Assembly: GCF_015277775.1 (NCBI RefSeq)
Contig: NZ_CP063849.1
Location: 2,604,001-2,668,000, forward strand
Direction of reading: 5' to 3'
Length of the DNA: 64,000 nucleotides
From: Paludibaculum fermentans
GTDB lineage: Bacteria > Acidobacteriota > Terriglobia > Bryobacterales > Bryobacteraceae
Part shown: positions 1,716 to 51,232 of the stretch, piece after piece
Layout: each line of letters starts with the position of its first letter
Position numbering within the stretch: the stretch's first letter is position 1
The notes under the pieces: generated by a model
Seen by the model: only the letters and a program-made list of their open reading frames with translations
Database searches by the model: none
What the model was told of the DNA's origin: nothing
Program-made: the position numbers and the translations under genes

Positions 1716-4700
1716 TCAGCCGATCAGGTCGCGGACGGTTTTCAGGAATACGTCCAACGACACCGGCTTCTGCAAGCACTCGTGGGCGCCGGCCCGCCGC
1801 GCCTCCCGCCGCACGTGGTCGTCCCAATTGCCGGCGATCGCCACCAGCCGCACATGCGGCAGCTCATGCGACAACAGATGGATCTGGTCGAGCGCCTCGC
1901 TCTCGGGGGCGATCGCGTCCACTACCAGCAGATCCACCGGCTTCTGCCGGCAGCGCGCCACGGCATCGGCTCCGTCGGCGGCAATGGCTACGGTGTACCC
2001 TTTCATCTCAAGAGCATCCCGCAGCAGTGCCGTGACCGCCGCGTCGCCGTCCAGCAGCAGCACGGACCGGGGCCGGATGGGTGTCGCCAGCACCTCCCGG
2101 ATCCGCTCGCTCAAACTCCGTGAATTGAAGGGCTTAGCCAGAAACTCCAGGCCCGGGTCCAGCACCCCGTGTTGGACGATCGCGTTCTGCGTGTAGCCCG
2201 ACATGAACAAAACGCGCATCTTCCGGCAGATTGGGGCCAGGGCCTCGGAGAGTTGCCGCCCGCCCAGGTTCGGCATCACCACATCGGTCACCAGCAGATC
2301 CACCAGGTCGCCCAGAATACGGCCGGTGCGCAGCGCCTGCTCGCCGTTCGCGGCCTCGTGGACCGTATACCCCAGCTCCCTCAGCACCCGCGCGGCAAAC
2401 TCACGTACCCCGGGATCGTCCTCCACCAGCAGGATCGTCTCACTGCCGCCGACTGACGTCACGGCCGGTTTGTCATCGGCTGTGCGGGCCAGGGCGGTCG
2501 CGGCCGGCAGATACACCTTGAAAGTACTGCCCACGTCCGGCTCACTATAGACCGCGATGTGGCCGCCGCTCTGTTTGACGATGCCGAATGCCGTGGACAA
2601 TCCGAGGCCAGTCCCCTTCCCGGCCGGCTTCGTGGTGAAAAACGGCTCGAAGATGCGCGCCTGGGTCTTCGCGTCCATCCCGTAGCCGGTATCGCTGACG
2701 GCCAGCATGGCGTGACGGCCGGGTTTGACACCCAGGTGGCTCTCCACATAGGCCTCGTCCAGGATCACTTCCTGCGACTCGATGGTGACCAGGCCACCGG
2801 CCGCCATCGCGTCGCTGGCGTTAATCACGAGGTTCATCAGGACCTGTTCCAACTGGTGCGGATCGGCCTCCACCTGGCACACCGCCGGATCCAGTTTCAT
2901 CTCAAGCTGGATGTCCTCGCGCAGCAACCGCGCCAGCAGCGGCCGCATGCCCTGGACCACCGTATTGATGTTCAGGACCCGCAGCTGCAGCACCTGCTTC
3001 CGGCCGAACGCCAGCAACTGATGCGTCAGCGCCGCCGCCCGGTCTCCGGCCGAGGCAATCTGGGCCAGATGCGGACGGATGGGATGGTCGTCCGCCAACC
3101 CCATCAGGCTGAGATTCGCATAGCCGCCGATGACGGTCAGCAGGTTGTTGAAATCATGGGCGATCCCGCCGGCCAGTTGTCCAATCGCCTCCATCTTCTG
3201 CGACTGCCGCAGTTGCTCTTCCAGGCGCTGCTTCGACGTCACATCGATCGACATCACCAGCCGTGCCGGGTGGCCCTCAAACTGGATGGAATGCGACCGG
3301 ATGTCGACATGCATCAGCGACCCATCCTTGCGCTGATGGCGCCAATACCGCTCCGGTTGGTCCGCCCAGTTCAGCTTCTCGTAGCCCTTTTCCAGCTTGG
3401 AGATACGATCAATCAGGATAGGCACATCTTCCGGCGGCCGGATGTCCCTGATCGTCATGGCCAGAAACTCAGCGCGGCTGAACCCGTAATCGTGGATCGC
3501 AGCCTGATTCACCGCCAGGAACTCCAGCGTGACCTCGTCGTAAACCCATAGCGGAACAGGACTTCGCTCAAACATCAGGCGGTAGTGCTCGGCCGTGCGC
3601 TTGCGGTCTGTGATGTCCACATACGTGGCCAGAACGCCGATCGTCTGTCCACCCGGCCCCAGCACCGGCCCGGAACTCGCATCGATGACCTTCACCCGTC
3701 CATCGGCGGTGCGTATTGCAATCTCCTCGTTCATGACGGTTGCTCCGGTGAGCAAAGTCCGCATGACCGGCCAGTCATTCGGGGTGTATGGGGTCCCGTC
3801 GGGAAGGCTGCCGGACCGCAGCGCCAATTCGGATTCCAGGTCGTCTGGGATCGGGCGGCCCATGATCCGCTCCGCCGCCGGATTGCACAGCGCGAACCGG
3901 CGCGACGGCAGGTCGATTACCATTACCCCCACCGGCAACTGGTCCACAATCGACCGCAGCCGGGCGTGCTCCGTCACCAACTGCTGCGCGACGCCGGCCT
4001 GTTCGCTGATGTCGGTCAGACACCCGGTGAGCACCGCACCCCCGCTCTCCCGGCCTTCGTGCAGCCGGCCGCGGTCGCGCACCCAGCGCACTCCATTCGG
4101 CGTAACTACTTTATAATCCTGCTGATATGGTTCTCCGGTGCGCGCCGCATTCTCCAGCGCACGCAGCGCGCGATCGCGGTCATCGGGAGACAGATGGCCG
4201 AAATGCACGCCCAAGGGACATTCCCGCAGCTCGGCGGGTAGCTCCAGCAGGCGGCAAGCCCGTTCATCCCGCGCCGCCATGCCGCTGAATGGATCGATCC
4301 TCCAGGTTCCAATGCCGGAGGCCCACAGCGCGTCCCCATAGCGCTCCTCGATCTCCCGCAGTTTTGACGCCCGGGCCAGGCGCTCCGTTATGTCCCGGGC
4401 AATCTTCGCCGCGCCCACCACCTGGCCGTCATCCCCGAGAATCGGGGAAATCGAGAGGGAGACAGGCACCAGTTGGCCGTTCTTCTTTCTACGGACGGTC
4501 TCGAAGTGCTGGATCCGCTCGCCGCGCTTGATCTTCTCCAGGATCGATTGCATCTCACCCTGGCGGTCCGGCGGCAGGATCAGGCTGATCGGACTCCCGA
4601 TCATCTCGGCCGCCGTATAGCCGAAGATCTGCTCCGCGGCCAGATTCCAACTTGTGACAGTTCCATCCAGTGTTTTGCTGATGATGGCGTCGTCAGAGGA

Positions 4701-32639: not shown

Positions 32640-33105
32640 TAAGGGGCGTGGACCAAGGATTTAGGAAGGGAATGTCTGCAATGTGTTGATTGTAGGGGAG
32701 AAGAAATTTGTGATTGTTGCGTGATGAACGAAGCTTAACGTGTGGAAATGAGGGAGAAGTCGATGGGGGTGGCGGGTGTGGGGTGATCCACTGTGCGCAG
32801 CGGAATCGTGATGGGTGAGCGCGATGAACGGAGATGGCCGCAGTTGGCCTCCGCTCAGTCATCCCTGGCGTATGTTCTCGCCGAAGCTCACCAGCGGAGG
32901 GTGACCCGTCCCAGTGGCGCTTGGGGTCAATTGAATCCGTACTTTGAGGCATGCCGCCGGTGGAAGGCGGGGTTATTGAGGTCCGGCAAGCTATTGCATT
33001 CTCAGAAGTTGGGGGCTATTGATGAATGTGGCGGGCAGCCGGGCTCCAGGGTGTCTTACGCCAAACGGTCGAGAGGTTGGGTCAGTAAGCCTTTCTTTTT
33101 CAGTT
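32640..33105. other. Intergenic region, no gene seen
   Basis: Open frames of up to 122 codons exist on both strands but overlap each other, show no family signal and lack ribosome sites. Together with the repeats that follow, no believable gene lies between 32.5 and 33.55 kb. Confidence 0.5.
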
Positions 33106-33257
33106 GCTTGCGGAAAGGTGCACGCCAGGCTGTCCACGTTCCTGTAGGCGCCCGCCAGTGATGCCTTCGCGTGGGGCATGAATGGGCCCGCCGCGTAACG
33201 CCGGTTGAATCTCTCGAAGTGGAACGGAGTGATTGCGCCAAACGAATCGGTGAGCTT
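33106..33257. repeat. Dispersed repeat, longest copy (A)
   Basis: This 152-bp stretch matches three other places in the window. Its last 111 bp (33147-33257) match 43881-43991 without gaps at about 90% by hand count (11 mismatches). Its first 37 bp (33106-33142) match 49871-49907 with 4 mismatches. A looser match lies at 39848-39887. Read on the minus strand the copies keep the same peptide (LTDSF, TPFHFER.NRRY, AGPFMP, KASLAGA, then DSLACTFPQ), as if derived from coding sequence. Confidence 0.75.
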
Positions 33258-33297
33258 CGGCGTTGGCCGGTCGCCGCCTTTCTAAACTCAACCTCCG

Positions 33298-34366: not shown

Positions 34367-34549
34367 GGTCAAATCTCCTTGATCATTACACCGTCGAATC
34401 CGGCCTGCTCAGTCAATCTGGCGGGCTGCGGGCGACGACGAACTACGTTGTTGAAGGAAAAGGAATGCTGGCGCACCAGCATAATTGCCAGCGGTTGTTT
34501 GTGTAGATGGAGGTTTTGTAAAGAATCCTGCGAGGCTCATGCTCCCAAG

Positions 34550-34658
34550 GTGGATCGCGAGACACCGGAGAGTCGTGCGAGCTCCCCGTTGTCTCGCCAG
34601 GAGGCACCAGCAAGGTACTTGCTGTCGCTGCGACGATTGCCTCGCTGTCCCGCTTCAA
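34550..34658 (-). pseudogene. Deletion remnant of an AraC-family gene
   Basis: Two pieces of the AraC gene at 47492-48412 are fused here. 34550-34585 matches the helix-turn-helix coding part near 47718-47753 (ELARLSGVSRST), and 34586-34658 matches the upstream sensor part near 48100-48172 (SEAIVAAT.ST, GETTG). The roughly 345 bp between them in the intact gene are missing and the frame ends soon after. The sequence is close but not identical, so it comes from an older duplicate or a related gene. Confidence 0.75.
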
Positions 34659-39715: not shown

Positions 39716-39847
39716 GTCACCCCACATCATACGGAATTGGAGTGTAAAGGGAGGGCTTGGGCCGGGATGGCGGCAGAAGGGTGGGAGCCGGCAGTGGGCA
39801 TCGCGGCCATGACCTGGAAGTTGTTCTCGAAAGAGGAGTGGGCCGAC

Positions 39848-39887
39848 AAGCCTTTCGTTTTTTGTGGTTTGGGGAAAGGTGGACGCC
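39848..39887. repeat. Dispersed repeat, divergent copy (D)
   Basis: This stretch resembles 33087-33127 in copy A (AAGCCTTTC, GGAAAGGTG, ACGCC in the same order). In the same minus-strand frame it gives STFPQTTKNERLVGP against CTFPQATEKERLTDP in copy A. Similarity is weaker than between the other copies. The surrounding 39716-40282 gap has no supportable gene. Confidence 0.5.
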
Positions 39888-40258
39888 GAGGGTATTCCCT
39901 GTCGAGGAAGCGCCCGGCTTCCTTCCAGGCCACGTTTTGCGATAGATCTCATTCCGACCACCTCTCGGGCCGTCAGCCTTCTCGCAGCACTATCGAGCTA
40001 CACGATAATCGAGGCCATTCTTCATCCTGGGATCATTAGAGGATTTCTACCGCTGGTTGCGACGCATCTGGATTCAAGGCTGGACCAGCAGCCTGTGGCG
40101 GAAGTCGCCCAGCCGCGTTCGCACGGCCGCCGGTACTACAATGGCAGCCCAAGTGCAATTTCGAAGCCGCTCCGAAGAGAGTCGCCTTTTTCTGGGAGGA
40201 GGGCCGGCGGCGGGGCGGACCCAAAGGGCGACAAGGGGTTGCGGCCCATGGCAGTGTC

Positions 40259-43505: not shown

Positions 43506-44048
43506 TCACTTTACATTGCGCCCGCCGGCGGCGGGGCGCGCCTTCGGCGCGATGGAACGCGCGGCTCCATTCACGGCAGCACCCGGCGCGGACCGGGGCG
43601 TCTCGTTGGGCGCGCGGTGGTCCGCCTTGTCGCGGTAGAAGACCTCGAAGGCCCCGTTGGGCTGGAACAGGATCGGCGACTGGAGGTTGCTCTCAAGTTC
43701 AATCGGCCATAACAATGGATGGCGCGGCTTGCCGGAAGGCAGTCGGATTGCGATCTCGCGCTTTACCCGGTGGGCGCCCTCCACGATCTGATTCACCGCC
43801 TCGCCCTTGCGGACCGGGCGGTACCGGCCGTTGGCGAGGAAGGCGCAGCCCGAGTGTCTGCGGCCAGGGCTCACTGTCGAGGCACCCGCCAGTGAGGCCT
43901 TCGTGTAGGGCATGAACGGGCCCGCCACGTAACGCCGGTTTAATCTCTCGAAGTGGAACGGGGTGCTTGCGGCAAACGAATCCGTGAGCTTGAGCGGGGA
44001 TGAGGTGACAGCCCCATTCCCAGCTCGCCGTCTACGACTTCCACTCAA
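43506..44048 (-). CDS. Chimeric hypothetical frame containing dispersed repeat B
   Basis: A 180-codon open frame. Residues about 19-55 are the dispersed repeat (LTDSFAASTPFHFERLNRRY). From about 65 a different, more protein-like stretch follows (GCAFLANGRYRPVRKGEAVN, REIAIRLPSGKPRHPLLWPI, FQPNGAFEVFYRDK), which may be the C-terminal end of a gene truncated by insertion of the repeat. There is no ribosome site or recognisable start. I keep it as a low-confidence or degraded gene. Confidence 0.3.
   Translation of the reverse strand: MSGSRRRRAGNGAVTSSPLKLTDSFAASTPFHFERLNRRYVAGPFMPYTKASLAGASTVSPGRRHSGCAFLANGRYRPVRKGEAVNQIVEGAHRVKREIAIRLPSGKPRHPLLWPIELESNLQSPILFQPNGAFEVFYRDKADHRAPNETPRSAPGAAVNGAARSIAPKARPAAGGRNVK
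43881..43991. repeat. Dispersed repeat, copy B
   Basis: 111 bp matching 33147-33257 without gaps (11 mismatches by hand). The match stops sharply at both ends: upstream of 43881 and downstream of 43991 the two places are unrelated. Confidence 0.75.
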
Positions 44049-47491: not shown

Positions 47492-48412
47492 CTATTTGAC
47501 GTGCACTCTGCGCGTCGCAAACCGTTTTGGAGAGCAGCCTACCGCTCGAGTGAACGCAGTGCTGAAGGCGCTGGAAGAGTGAAAACCCACGGATAGAGCA
47601 ATCTCTCCGATGGCCTTTGTTCCGCAGGAAAGTTCGTCTTTTGCCAAGGCGATCCTCCAATTCGCCAGGTATTCAATGGGACCGAGTCCCATCACCGCCC
47701 GAAACCGAGTCGCAAACGTGGATCGCGAGACACCGGAGAGCCGTGCGAGCTCCGCCACGGTCCACGTGCCAGCGACCTCGCGATGCAGCGCTGAGAGCGA
47801 TTTGGCTATGACCGGATCGGCAAGACCGGAGAGTAGACCTTTTGTTCCCGGTTTCAGCCTCGGCAGCTCGCTACGCAGCAGCTCCAGGAGGGTTAGTTCC
47901 ATCAGGCGGCTGACGACGAGATCGCTGCCCGGTCCTGGATGTTGGCCTTCGGCATCGTTCATGGTGAGCAAGGAACGCAGGCGCCAGGAGATCTGCTGGT
48001 TAGCCGCGATATGAATGAGAGAGGGGAGGAAGCTCCACAGCAGAGCTTCGTTGGGCGTGCCGAATACGAAACGGCCACAGCGGAGCATAGTACAGGGACC
48101 CGTTGTCTCGCCCAGCACAAGCTCGGTACTTCCTGTCGCCGCGACGATTGCCTCGCTGTCCTGCGGCTTGAGCTCCGGATCGGATGACAGAGAGAACGGC
48201 GACGAGGTCCGAATGAAAACGAAGTCTCCGGTTCTGAGAAGAACCGGATCCCGATGAGAACGCGCCAGCTGGCATTCCCCCGTTTCCACCCAGCAGAACA
48301 AAAGGTCGTCGCGCTTGCGAAAGGAAACACTCCATCTGCCAGTGCCCTTGATGCGTCCCCACAGCGTGGCCCGGGGTCTTAGCAAACCGATCAGATCGGC
48401 GAAGGGATCCAT
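47492..48412 (-). CDS. AraC-family transcriptional regulator with cupin-type sensor
   Basis: A 306-residue regulator. Residues about 1-190 form the AraC-binding-like cupin (cupin_6 type: LLRPRATLWGRIKGTGRWSV, LFCWVETGECQLA, LLRTGDFVFI). Residues about 205-300 hold two helix-turn-helix motifs (WTVAELARLSGVSRSTFATR and AIGEIALSVGFHSSSAFSTA) followed by GCSPKRF. Relatives often control adjacent short-chain dehydrogenase or NmrA-like genes, and such a cluster lies 1.7 kb downstream. A deleted relative of this gene survives at 34550-34658. Confidence 0.9.
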   Translation of the reverse strand: MDPFADLIGLLRPRATLWGRIKGTGRWSVSFRKRDDLLFCWVETGECQLARSHRDPVLLRTGDFVFIRTSSPFSLSSDPELKPQDSEAIVAATGSTELVLGETTGPCTMLRCGRFVFGTPNEALLWSFLPSLIHIAANQQISWRLRSLLTMNDAEGQHPGPGSDLVVSRLMELTLLELLRSELPRLKPGTKGLLSGLADPVIAKSLSALHREVAGTWTVAELARLSGVSRSTFATRFRAVMGLGPIEYLANWRIALAKDELSCGTKAIGEIALSVGFHSSSAFSTAFTRAVGCSPKRFATRRVHVK

Positions 48413-48696
48413 TCAGGATTGGACGCTCGATAAACGAATTCGGTGCATCGCTTATCGACGGTGTGAGTTGGACCCGGTATTCTGAACCAGAGGGGAAAGC
48501 CGGCACGATGCAGTGCCTGGCTCGCAAGTCTGGGAGCCGCTGCGTCTATGACGCGACTGTGCCGGGTGCCCGCTTACTGCCGTGCGCGGTTCGTGGCGTG
48601 GTGGGGACCCCTCCTTGACGATTGGGGTTCGTGGCGGCTTCCCTCACTTTGGCGGCCCGGAGGGTCATGCGGGATTCCGATAAAGACGCGGTGGGA

Positions 48697-49460
48697 GCCC
48701 GTCGCTTACGCTCGGGGACTGGGCCGGGCTTAGCCCGTCGCTTACGCTCGGGGACTGGGTCGGGCTTAGCCCGTCGCTTACGCTCAGGGACTGGGCCGGA
48801 CTTAGCCCGTCGCTTACGCTCAGGGACTGGGCCGGACTTAGCCCGTCGCTTAAGCTCGGGGACTGGGCCGGGCTTAGCCCGTCGCTTACGCTCAGGGACT
48901 GAGCCGGGCTTAGCCCGTCGCTTACGCTCAGGGACTGGGCCGGACTTAGCCCGTCGCTTAAGCTCGGGGACTGGGTGGCTTAGCCCGTCGCTTAAGCTCG
49001 GGGACTGGGCGGGCTTAGCCCGTCGCTTACGCTCGGGGACTGGGTCGGGCTTAGCCCGTCGCTTACGCTCGGGGACTGGGCCGGCTTAGCCCGTCGCTTA
49101 CGCTCGGGGATTGGGCCGGGCTTAGCCCGTCGCTTACGCTCGGGGACTGGGCCGGGCTTAGCCCGTCGCTTACGCTCGGGGATTGGGCGGGCTTAGCCCG
49201 TCGCTTACGCTCAGGGACTGGGCCGGACTTAGCCCGTCGCTTACGCTCGGGGACTGGGCCGGGCTTAGCCCGTCGCTTACGCTCAGGCACTGGGCCGGGC
49301 TTAGCCCGTCGCTTACGCTCGGGGACTGGGCCGGGCTTAGCCTGTCGCTTACGCTCAGGGACTGAGCCGGGCTTAGCCCGTCGCTTACGCTCAGGCACTG
49401 GGCCAGGCTTAGCCCGTCGCTTACGCTCGGGGACTGGGTCGGGCTTAGCCCGTCGCTTAC
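48697..49460. repeat. Tandem array of a 36-bp GC-rich unit, about 21 copies
   Basis: I count 22 occurrences of GTCGCTTA, mostly at 36-bp spacing with a few shortened units. The unit reads roughly GGGCTTAGCCCGTCGC followed by TTACGCTCGGGGACTGGGCC, with recurrent variants (CTCAGGGACT, TTAAGCTC, GGACTTAG, GGCACTGG). Each unit holds the near-palindrome GGGCTTAGCCC. Because 36 is a multiple of three, both strands show stop-free periodic frames with 12-residue repeats such as RRLRSGTGPDLA; these are not believed to be genes. There are no spacers, so it is not CRISPR. The 280 bp between the AraC gene and the array hold nothing recognisable. Confidence 0.9.
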
Positions 49461-49491
49461 CAATCAGAACATCAGACAGGAGAACAAGAGT

Positions 49492-49866
49492 ATGCCATCG
49501 AAAGCAGTAGACCTTTACAAACGGTACGCTACCGCCTGGTCAGCGATCCCGGATCAGGAGCGTCGCAGTATTCTGGACTCCGTCCTGGAAACAGAGATCA
49601 GCTACCGCATTCCCAGGATGGAAGGAACAGGCCATCAGGTCGTGATCGACGACATAAACGACTTTCAGGCGAAGGTCCCCGGAGGGCGGTTTGCCCTGCA
49701 CAGCGTCTCTGAGCACCACGACGTAGCACTGATGGAGTGGCAACTGATCCTTCCAGATGGGACGCCGGGCGTGCGGGGCCACGATGCCATCCGCGTTACA
49801 CCGGAAGGCAAGTTGGGACAGATCGTCACGTTCGCACCGTCCACGCTGGAGCCGCAGGGCTCGTAA
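49492..49866 (+). CDS. SnoaL/NTF2-like small protein
   Basis: A 124-residue protein with an NTF2-like pattern: an N-terminal helix (AVDLYKRYATAWSAIPDQER), then a short helix and curved strands (TEISYRIPRMEGTGHQVV, FQAKVPGGRFALHSVSEHHD, ALMEWQLILPDGTPGVRG, GQIVTFAPST). SnoaL-like proteins include isomerases, hydroxylases and non-enzymatic binders. AGGAG lies nine bases before the ATG. It begins 32 bp after the tandem array, so its promoter must lie in or before the repeats. Confidence 0.75.
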   Translation: MPSKAVDLYKRYATAWSAIPDQERRSILDSVLETEISYRIPRMEGTGHQVVIDDINDFQAKVPGGRFALHSVSEHHDVALMEWQLILPDGTPGVRGHDAIRVTPEGKLGQIVTFAPSTLEPQGS

Positions 49867-49870
49867 TTTG

Positions 49871-49907
49871 GCTTGCGGGCAGGTGCACGCCAGGCTATCC
49901 GCGTTCC
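49871..49907. repeat. Dispersed repeat, copy C
   Basis: 37 bp matching 33106-33142 with 4 mismatches. On the minus strand it gives NADSLACTCPQA against NVDSLACTFPQA in copy A. It lies in the 43-bp gap between the SnoaL-like gene and the downstream end of the membrane regulator gene. Confidence 0.7.
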
Positions 49908-49909
49908 AG

Positions 49910-51232
49910 TTACCGCGGGTGGCCCGGCGCCGGGCCGATGACCCTAGTTGCCACGATGCGGGCACGGTTTGGGGTGTTGTCCACGGCGTGGGTTTCGAGC
50001 ATCATTTCGAAATAGGGCAGATCTTCCAACCGGGTGGCCCCTACGGCGGAGAGGATCGACGCGGCTGAACCGGGATTGGCCGCAAACTCTCCGGCCGCCT
50101 CCATGGTCACCATGTTCACCCCGTTGATCAGAAGTACACCGCCCTGGCCGCTGAGATTCGGGAGGTAGGCCAGACGGCCATAGTTGGTTCCCTGCTCCGA
50201 GCCGGGCTGATTGGCCAGATAGGCGGGCAACTCGTTGCCTCGCGGCTGGCGATTGAGAAAGCCCGCCCTGCCTTTTTCGAGAATGTACTGGAAGTTCAGG
50301 CGATCCTCGAAGAGGGCAATCCAGGTGGTGGATTGCGCGTTGCCCAGCAGGATGTGCCAGCCCGACTTGAACTCACGCGCCGCCACATCCCTGGCATGCC
50401 GTACCTGGATCCGGTCCGGAGTCCGGGACTGCTTCTGGATCAGGGACGTAATATTCAGATCGCCGAGCCGTGTGATGCGGTGCGTTCTGAGGATGTCAAA
50501 GAGCGTCCGCAAGCGCTCGTCCGCGTTGGGTTCCGGACGCAGGTTCTCGTAGTTCCAGGCGGAGTAGTTGTCCAGGGAGAGCGGAGGGTTGTGCCCGATG
50601 GTTCTCATTAAGACATAGGAAAAGTCGGAGACCACCACTTTCACCGGCCCGTCCGAACGGTCCAGGAAGGAGGAGACAAGATTGGGCGCGCGCTGGGACT
50701 CCGACGCGGGGTGCCGAGTGGAGGAGAACCGATCCACCAGCAGCCACGCCAGGAGGATCACATTCAGGGCCGCGGCGGCAACGAGAACCCGGGCCGCCCA
50801 TACGGGCCGCCGGGCCGAACTAGCACTGGGTGGAGGTACCAGCGGAGGCGCGGGCTCCGCTTCCGGCCGCCGGGTAAACACCGGAACATACCCGCCGCGG
50901 AGGATCTCCACCTGCCAGGTCTCTGAAGCGCCTTCGGTCTCGAAGTAGTCCTTGAGCTTGGCCCTGAGCTGGCGAGCACTGACACGGACGACGCTGTCCT
51001 CGGAGGGGACGTAGCCGCCGTCGCGCCCGAAGATCCGCCGGCCGATCTCCAGTTCGCTGATCTGGTCCTGGCGGCCCTGGATGGTGCGGGCCGCGACAAA
51101 GTGGAAGAACTCCCGGAGCCGTGGGGACTTTGCGAACGCGCGGCTCTGCAGGATGCGCACGGCGAGGGCGCCGCGCTCGTCGTGCCCTAACTCCTCCAGG
51201 GGCGTTAACTCCGACTCTGAATCTCCGGTCAT
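49910..51232 (-). CDS. Membrane-anchored winged-helix-like regulator, divergent from TonB receptor 1
   Basis: A 440-residue protein. The N-terminal 120 residues look DNA-binding: FAKSPRLREFFHFVAARTIQ, ISELEIGRRIFGR, DSVVRVSARQLRAKLKDYFE and VEILRGGYVPVF, a pattern like ToxR/OmpR-type winged helices seen in Acidobacteriota. A Pro-rich linker leads to one transmembrane helix at about 146-166 (AARVLVAAAALNVILLAWLL). The remaining 270 residues would be periplasmic and resemble a ligand-sensing domain (VKVVVSDFSYVLMRTIG, SGWHILLGNAQSTTWIALFE, GVLLINGVNMVTMEAAGEFA). It is divergent from a TonB receptor, with 108 bp between. It may sense uptake or periplasmic ligand and regulate that receptor directly from the membrane. 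Confidence 0.75.
   Translation of the reverse strand: MTGDSESELTPLEELGHDERGALAVRILQSRAFAKSPRLREFFHFVAARTIQGRQDQISELEIGRRIFGRDGGYVPSEDSVVRVSARQLRAKLKDYFETEGASETWQVEILRGGYVPVFTRRPEAEPAPPLVPPPSASSARRPVWAARVLVAAAALNVILLAWLLVDRFSSTRHPASESQRAPNLVSSFLDRSDGPVKVVVSDFSYVLMRTIGHNPPLSLDNYSAWNYENLRPEPNADERLRTLFDILRTHRITRLGDLNITSLIQKQSRTPDRIQVRHARDVAAREFKSGWHILLGNAQSTTWIALFEDRLNFQYILEKGRAGFLNRQPRGNELPAYLANQPGSEQGTNYGRLAYLPNLSGQGGVLLINGVNMVTMEAAGEFAANPGSAASILSAVGATRLEDLPYFEMMLETHAVDNTPNRARIVATRVIGPAPGHPR

Follow-up and report, generated by a model that had tools for sequence, protein, structure and literature searches.

Four stretches of DNA lying between 33 and 50 kb of the window analysed here (64,000 nucleotides, C1:2604001-2668000 of the 9.53 Mb, two-contig genome of Paludibaculum fermentans, G000) raise the question of whether they descend from a mobile element, from a former gene or from local duplication, the initial annotation having grouped them as one dispersed repeat family with a conserved reading frame. 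Sequence sharing between the stretches (33106-33257, 39848-39887, 43881-43991 and 49871-49907, hereafter copies A to D) is above chance in BLASTN comparisons within the window. Copies A and C share 112 bp at 90% identity (E 3e-39), A and D 40 bp at 88% (E 2e-8) and A and B 40 bp at 83% (E 1e-5); a separate repeat-family scan of the window returned the same similarities as families D2 and D7. The stretches do not constitute a single family, as the similarities belong to two unrelated repeats, X and Y, that meet at position 33146. Copy C has only part Y in common with A (33146-33257 corresponding to 43880-43991). Copies B and D share only part X, which extends below the reported start at 33106.

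When ten near full-length copies were aligned, X proved to reach approximately position 32847 and to have conserved ends, and a sequence-only profile, R1, was built from these ten. Within the window, where matches were counted at E up to 0.1, X is represented by one near full-length, old copy and two fragments, all on the minus strand. Copy A, a member of subfamily 1, spans 32847..33146 (192.5 bits, E 1.5e-57, the sequence being among the ten used to build R1) and contains a 230-bp core from GACAGCC to CTGGGACGGG at approximately 32905-33134. The outer half of its right end is not recognisable, and with this half lost the copy looks old. Copy B (39775..39899; 26.1 bits, E 1.3e-6) is a fragment situated about 45 bp upstream of the start of a predicted GH127 gene, and copy D (49866..49910; 19.5 bits, E 1.3e-4) is a left-end fragment at the stop codon of the ORF at 49910-51232. 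A further copy lies just beyond the window at C1:2668152-2668393. An exact inverted 14-mer, GGTGAGCTTCGGCG, flanks the joined X and Y at 32879-32892 and 33249-33262. Other repeats in the window comprise tandem arrays of 36-bp period in two blocks at 48552-49567, with 16 overlapping reference copies listed, and two repeats between 34547-34653 and 47715-48164 (39 bp at 95% and 50 bp at 88%). The second of these lies within an AraC-type regulator gene (47492-48412), so that 34547-34653 may be a gene remnant.

X is not restricted to this region. A DNA search of the genome recovered additional incomplete copies, including five in a 12-kb stretch at 4067-4079 kb, and R1 matched at E<=0.01 at least 36 times in the own genome and at least 16, 11 and 1 times in three congeners (G006, G002 and G001, respectively). 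Among the matches listed at that threshold there were none in five further congeners, and a wider search under stricter filters matched, among the matches listed, the own genome alone (1 of 61). After overlaps and weak rows were left out, 54 of 72 R1 rows remained, and none of the 54 lay wholly inside a predicted gene, the gene calls being crude ones based on codon usage with partial overlaps not flagged. The copies are thus extragenic. They do not consistently occupy one side of genes, since orientation is mixed (upstream neighbour on the same strand in 29 cases and the opposite strand in 24; downstream neighbour 34 and 18). X adjoins several Rhs genes, but Rhs genes were rejected as its carriers, none of the matches listed falling in the listed Rhs clusters at approximately 6.58, 6.80-6.83 and 3.79 Mb. 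One locus was checked for an empty X site in five congeners, and none was seen. That all of the similarities arose by simple duplication and decay between 33 and 50 kb is extremely unlikely, given that X copies with differing flanks occur throughout the genome and in three congeners; local duplication is refuted for X. It draws what support it has from part Y, which occurs only in A and C, at a distance of 10.7 kb, and for which it is the best reading.

The first copy of Y (33146..33257, minus strand) lies directly beside the left end of X and is identical to the second (43880..43991, minus strand) at 101 of 112 bases (E 3e-39, BLASTN within the window). Y is a separate two-copy duplication that X directly adjoins in A. 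It is full-length in A and C alone (112 bp); in G012 and G017 its edge is matched over 28-34 bp. The proposal that all four stretches occupy intergenic or degraded DNA holds for X and is less plain for copy C, where an open 180-aa ORF (43506-44048, minus strand) that matched no Pfam family includes Y in its frame. Y is open in both copies. Their 11 differences, six of them at third positions, fall in 5 synonymous and 6 non-synonymous codons (pS 0.18, pN 0.07), and with a Fisher p of 0.13 on 11 differences the comparison cannot decide whether Y was coding. A weak match to a G007 protein (E 0.003) is antisense to a long open frame read as Fic-like, and Y has no trusted homologue. Y may derive from coding DNA.

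The initial annotation attributed the peptide shared by the copies to a conserved reading frame, and hence to an element derived from coding sequence or to a short peptide family. In several copies the left end of X does read DSL(A/T)C/RT..., but in the frame of CTFPQATEKERL a stop codon occurs within 25 codons in 27 of 41 aligned X copies, the frame being open in 14. Over the 120 bp that precede the right motif, differences at the three codon positions numbered 357/358/389 (56 copy pairs), that is, without periodicity; uneven blocks were present 120-160 bp away (48/124/62) and beyond the motif (43/16/57), the pairs not being independent. These results discount X as coding sequence. The idea that X and Y together are fragments of a former protein gene or of a short peptide family, to which the open frame of Y and its third-position differences lend some weight, is accordingly scarcely credible, and for X it is largely refuted. 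The shared peptide of the X copies is a by-product of conserved DNA, recurring because the left-end DNA of X is conserved. How such a peptide arises is shown at locus L122 of G002, where an open frame read as Rhs-like (3128-3508) enters the end of a transposase element (AGNGDSLTRPTS). A repeated peptide in degraded DNA can therefore be an artefact of conserved element ends. It had also been reasoned that an absence of further copies genome-wide, combined with substitutions unbiased towards synonymous sites, would indicate local duplication and decay; the outcome was divided, there being far more than four copies of X genome-wide, yet no synonymous bias.

Conserved linear blocks inside X might alternatively reflect a structured RNA or a regulatory leader. 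Folding was assessed on alignment A3, comprising 42 hand-picked rows of the 72, from which L104, cut too short, was dropped for the end-profile, folding and stop-codon tests. Good minus-strand folds were obtained for two copies (z -4.6 and -5.1), and ten close copies yielded a weak consensus structure with RNAalifold. Across 41 copies of subfamilies 1-3, by contrast, folding was no better than that of shuffled sequences (mean z +0.24 and -0.04), RNAalifold returned no consensus pairs or structure in 42 X sequences, and neither an excess of complementarity in X nor an Rfam match in the window between 32500 and 50500 was found. The left end alone was tested as a hairpin in five cases (z -1.9 to +1.1). 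With no conserved fold, no Rfam match and mixed orientation relative to neighbouring genes, an RNA or leader function is very improbable. For 9 copies of subfamily 4, folding was better than that of shuffled sequences on either strand (mean z -1.8 for both).

The ends of X and the distance between them are its most regular features. The left end reads GGGACAGCCTGRC... and the right end is an inverted version of it (...TGGGACGGGTC...), nearly complete in subfamily 4 and without its outer half in the window's subfamily 1. In 36 copies the left boundary is sharp, information falling to approximately 0.1 bit within 10 bp outside GACAGCC, and at the right boundary information fades after GGGACGGGTCAC. 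The distance from GACAGCC to CTGGGACGGG was 230 bp in 20 and 227-232 bp in 31 of 36 model-collected copies; in a second count 35 of 43 copies measured 227-232 bp, and several of the lengths far from 230 look like mis-picked anchors. The number of copies used differed between analyses, with 54 for gene location, 37 and 43 for lengths and 29 for ungapped identity, of which the 23 of exactly 230 bp were kept.

A model-free search gave the same spacing. A plain left-end pattern, which favours subfamilies 2 and 4 and not the window's own, identified 24 sites in the genome against none in the backward control, and the right motif (<=1 mismatch) was located at 229-232 bp from 17 of these 24, a figure that counts one element twice, by its two ends, and includes some sites from duplicated segments (e.g. 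8858432 and 8865044). Within 700 bp the motif otherwise occurred only at 290, 461 and 504 bp, these being the right ends of neighbouring copies. This search exposed subfamily 4, in which both inverted ends are nearly complete and the element measures approximately 242 bp end to end. At L149 (G000 C1 8652299-8652539) both inverted ends are recognisable by the left-end pattern. With the fullest ends and better-than-shuffle folding, subfamily 4 looks to be the youngest. The left-end pattern was absent from viral contigs. The exact two-ended pattern occurred in two records of a contig database, an Acidobacteria MAG contig and a Pantoea contig, the latter being without an R1 match and so taken as chance.

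Length is better kept than sequence. The median ungapped identity among the 23 copies measuring exactly 230 bp was 40%, a value that can be lowered by internal gaps that cancel. Pairs of copies 90-100% identical (7) differed by 18 substitutions and 0.3 gap events per pair, those 80-90% identical (24) by 34 and 1.4, those 70-80% identical (16) by 54 and 0.8, and those 60-70% identical (65) by 72 and 8.4. Pairs at 40-60% identity (483), which are hardly alignable, showed 73 substitutions and 15.2 gap events. Below 70% identity gaps are therefore many, and the net length difference averages less than 1 bp in copies that had been preselected at 221-239 bp.

Genes for Y1 transposases, identified by PF01797, number 9 in the own genome, 3 in G002 and 14 in G006. 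At three of 20 loci scanned (L108, L110 and L122) both X-like ends were present in inverted orientation, 851-871 bp apart around the Y1 gene; two further loci (L116 and L117) had single ends, six gave weak matches and nine had no end motif. When X profiles were compared with ten stretches hand-picked from 24 Y1 loci, the best E-values, which refer to a tiny set of approximately 12 kb, were 8e-5 for subfamily 2, 7e-4 for subfamily 3, 2e-4 for subfamily 4 and 1e-4 for all copies; the same profiles gave no match at E<=1 against the reversed stretches, and the best E over all 24 loci was 8e-4. The profile of subfamily 1, the window's own, matched transposase ends at E 0.18 or worse, and its link to the transposase consequently runs through subfamilies 2-4. 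The left end of X corresponds to the end on the 5' side of the transposase element. Approximately 80 bp at the right end of X align with the 3' side of L108 (E 0.009) and with an orphan end in L117 (E 1e-4). The middle of X has no match in the transposase elements. The proteins of L108 and L122 carry NHIH and YVE.NP motifs and have as their best NCBIfam match REP_Tyr_transpos, the REP-associated tyrosine transposase, at 71 and 74 bits, both below the cut-off of 80. The end motif GGGGACAG is found at the end of L122, and most subfamily 4 copies carry it in their right end.

Inverted ends carrying GGGGWSAS flank the Y1 genes of TIRYT transposases in PMC3733652, which also describes a distinct acidobacterial group. 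The present genomes resemble these TIRtrons in having Y1 genes with inverted ends, where GGGGACAG is the counterpart of GGGGWSAS, and end repeats of moderate number. X differs in consisting of two-ended units of approximately 240 bp and near-constant length, of which the available portion of that account describes none, and the window copy, which lacks the outer right half, reads GTGGACAG, one letter off GGGGWSAS. REPINs (PMC3116915) are extragenic and tied to a RAYT; their two ends keep a constant spacing of 71 or 110 bp, the middle varies more freely and the excised unit is asymmetric at its right boundary. X shares the constant spacing, at 230 bp, the freer middle, the asymmetric right boundary and the extragenic location, and its tie to a RAYT is a probable one; in addition, the right end of the window subfamily is incomplete and subfamilies 1-3 fold no better than shuffles. 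As no hairpin with compensatory changes was found in subfamilies 1-3 (mean z near 0, no covariation), X is not filed as a REPIN. The Class 3 TnpA-Y1 enzymes of Acidobacteria, likewise HUH transposases with many copies of associated structures (approximately 600 in Solibacter usitatus), bear the signature Y....Q in the description available (PMC6006769); the proteins here have YVE.NP in its place, which makes Class 3 membership unlikely.

Taken together, these data suggest that X is probably a REPIN-like, non-autonomous element, now present as old copies, that belongs to an acidobacterial RAYT/TIRYT transposase. For X, the earlier suggestion of a mobile element is thus the best reading, with many dispersed intergenic copies, a sharp left end, near-constant length and ends similar to those of Y1 transposase elements, and no sign of a coding role or of RNA structure. 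X would be a family of non-autonomous mobile DNA approximately 240 bp long, similar at its ends to a REP-associated tyrosine (Y1/HUH) transposase element of the TIRYT type known from Acidobacteria. A few intact transposase genes at other genomic positions would supply the enzyme, which would recognise the pair of ends on single-stranded DNA at a fixed distance from each other and move X between intergenic places, leaving the middle free to diverge. We infer both the action of the enzyme on X and the single-stranded route, the latter from the enzyme's relatives.

Several other elements adjoin X at its left end. L087, L088 and L100 have a flank in common (27 bases, <=1 mismatch) that stops at the left end of X; in L110 this flank stops at the transposase element's end. 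The adjoining 356-aa gene in L087, the one locus of this group in which families were scanned, encodes an IS110-family transposase, and the other loci of the group have an ORF of the same length (356 aa) at that place. A group II intron (RF02005, RF00029) adjoins X in L021 and L076, TIGR04416 having been scanned in L076, and their common flank ends one base before GACAGCC. In an Rhs array at 4064-4080 kb of C1 (L019 and L020) four duplicated Rhs units of 1.7-1.8 kb, at 4066-4080 kb, start a few bases from the left end of X; a fifth unit is without X. A further array of X copies at 8858-8882 kb of C1 (L075 and L076) contains three near-identical modules that each carry a primase-like gene and a gene for a tyrosine recombinase, as identified by a family scan of one module. 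This recombinase was rejected as the autonomous partner of X, near-identical copies being present at three places only and the rest being no more than 38% identical.

These neighbours, together with a length better kept than sequence, could also be explained if X were not itself transposable but a DNA site of fixed geometry that serves the host or other elements (IS110, group II introns, a tyrosine recombinase), for instance as a point of docking or breakage within Rhs and mobile-gene arrays. This is unlikely: most X copies examined have no such neighbour, the orientation of neighbours is mixed and the recombinase is limited in the manner described above. REP sequences are moreover known targets of IS elements (PMC1525189), and an IS110-family gene beside the left end of X in several copies is in keeping with this behaviour. 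X differs from that precedent in having group II introns at the same spot too; a limited literature search, which cannot prove absence, recognised no description of group II introns at such ends.

The preferred reading of X as a non-autonomous element of a Y1 transposase admits a more speculative form, put forward tentatively and judged rather doubtful, in which the element is kept by its length and not by its content. The Y1 transposase or another machine might measure approximately 230 bp between two short ends, and the elements might in addition be favoured docking places for IS110 and group II introns and mark the breaks in Rhs arrays, thereby shaping the variable parts of these large acidobacterial genomes. 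If this were true, lineages of X sharing only 40% of their letters would keep their length to approximately 2 bp. On the preferred reading itself, X offers a natural case in which to ask what is essential to small elements that Y1 transposases move, since the spacing of the ends is kept and the sequence between them drifts to approximately 40% identity.
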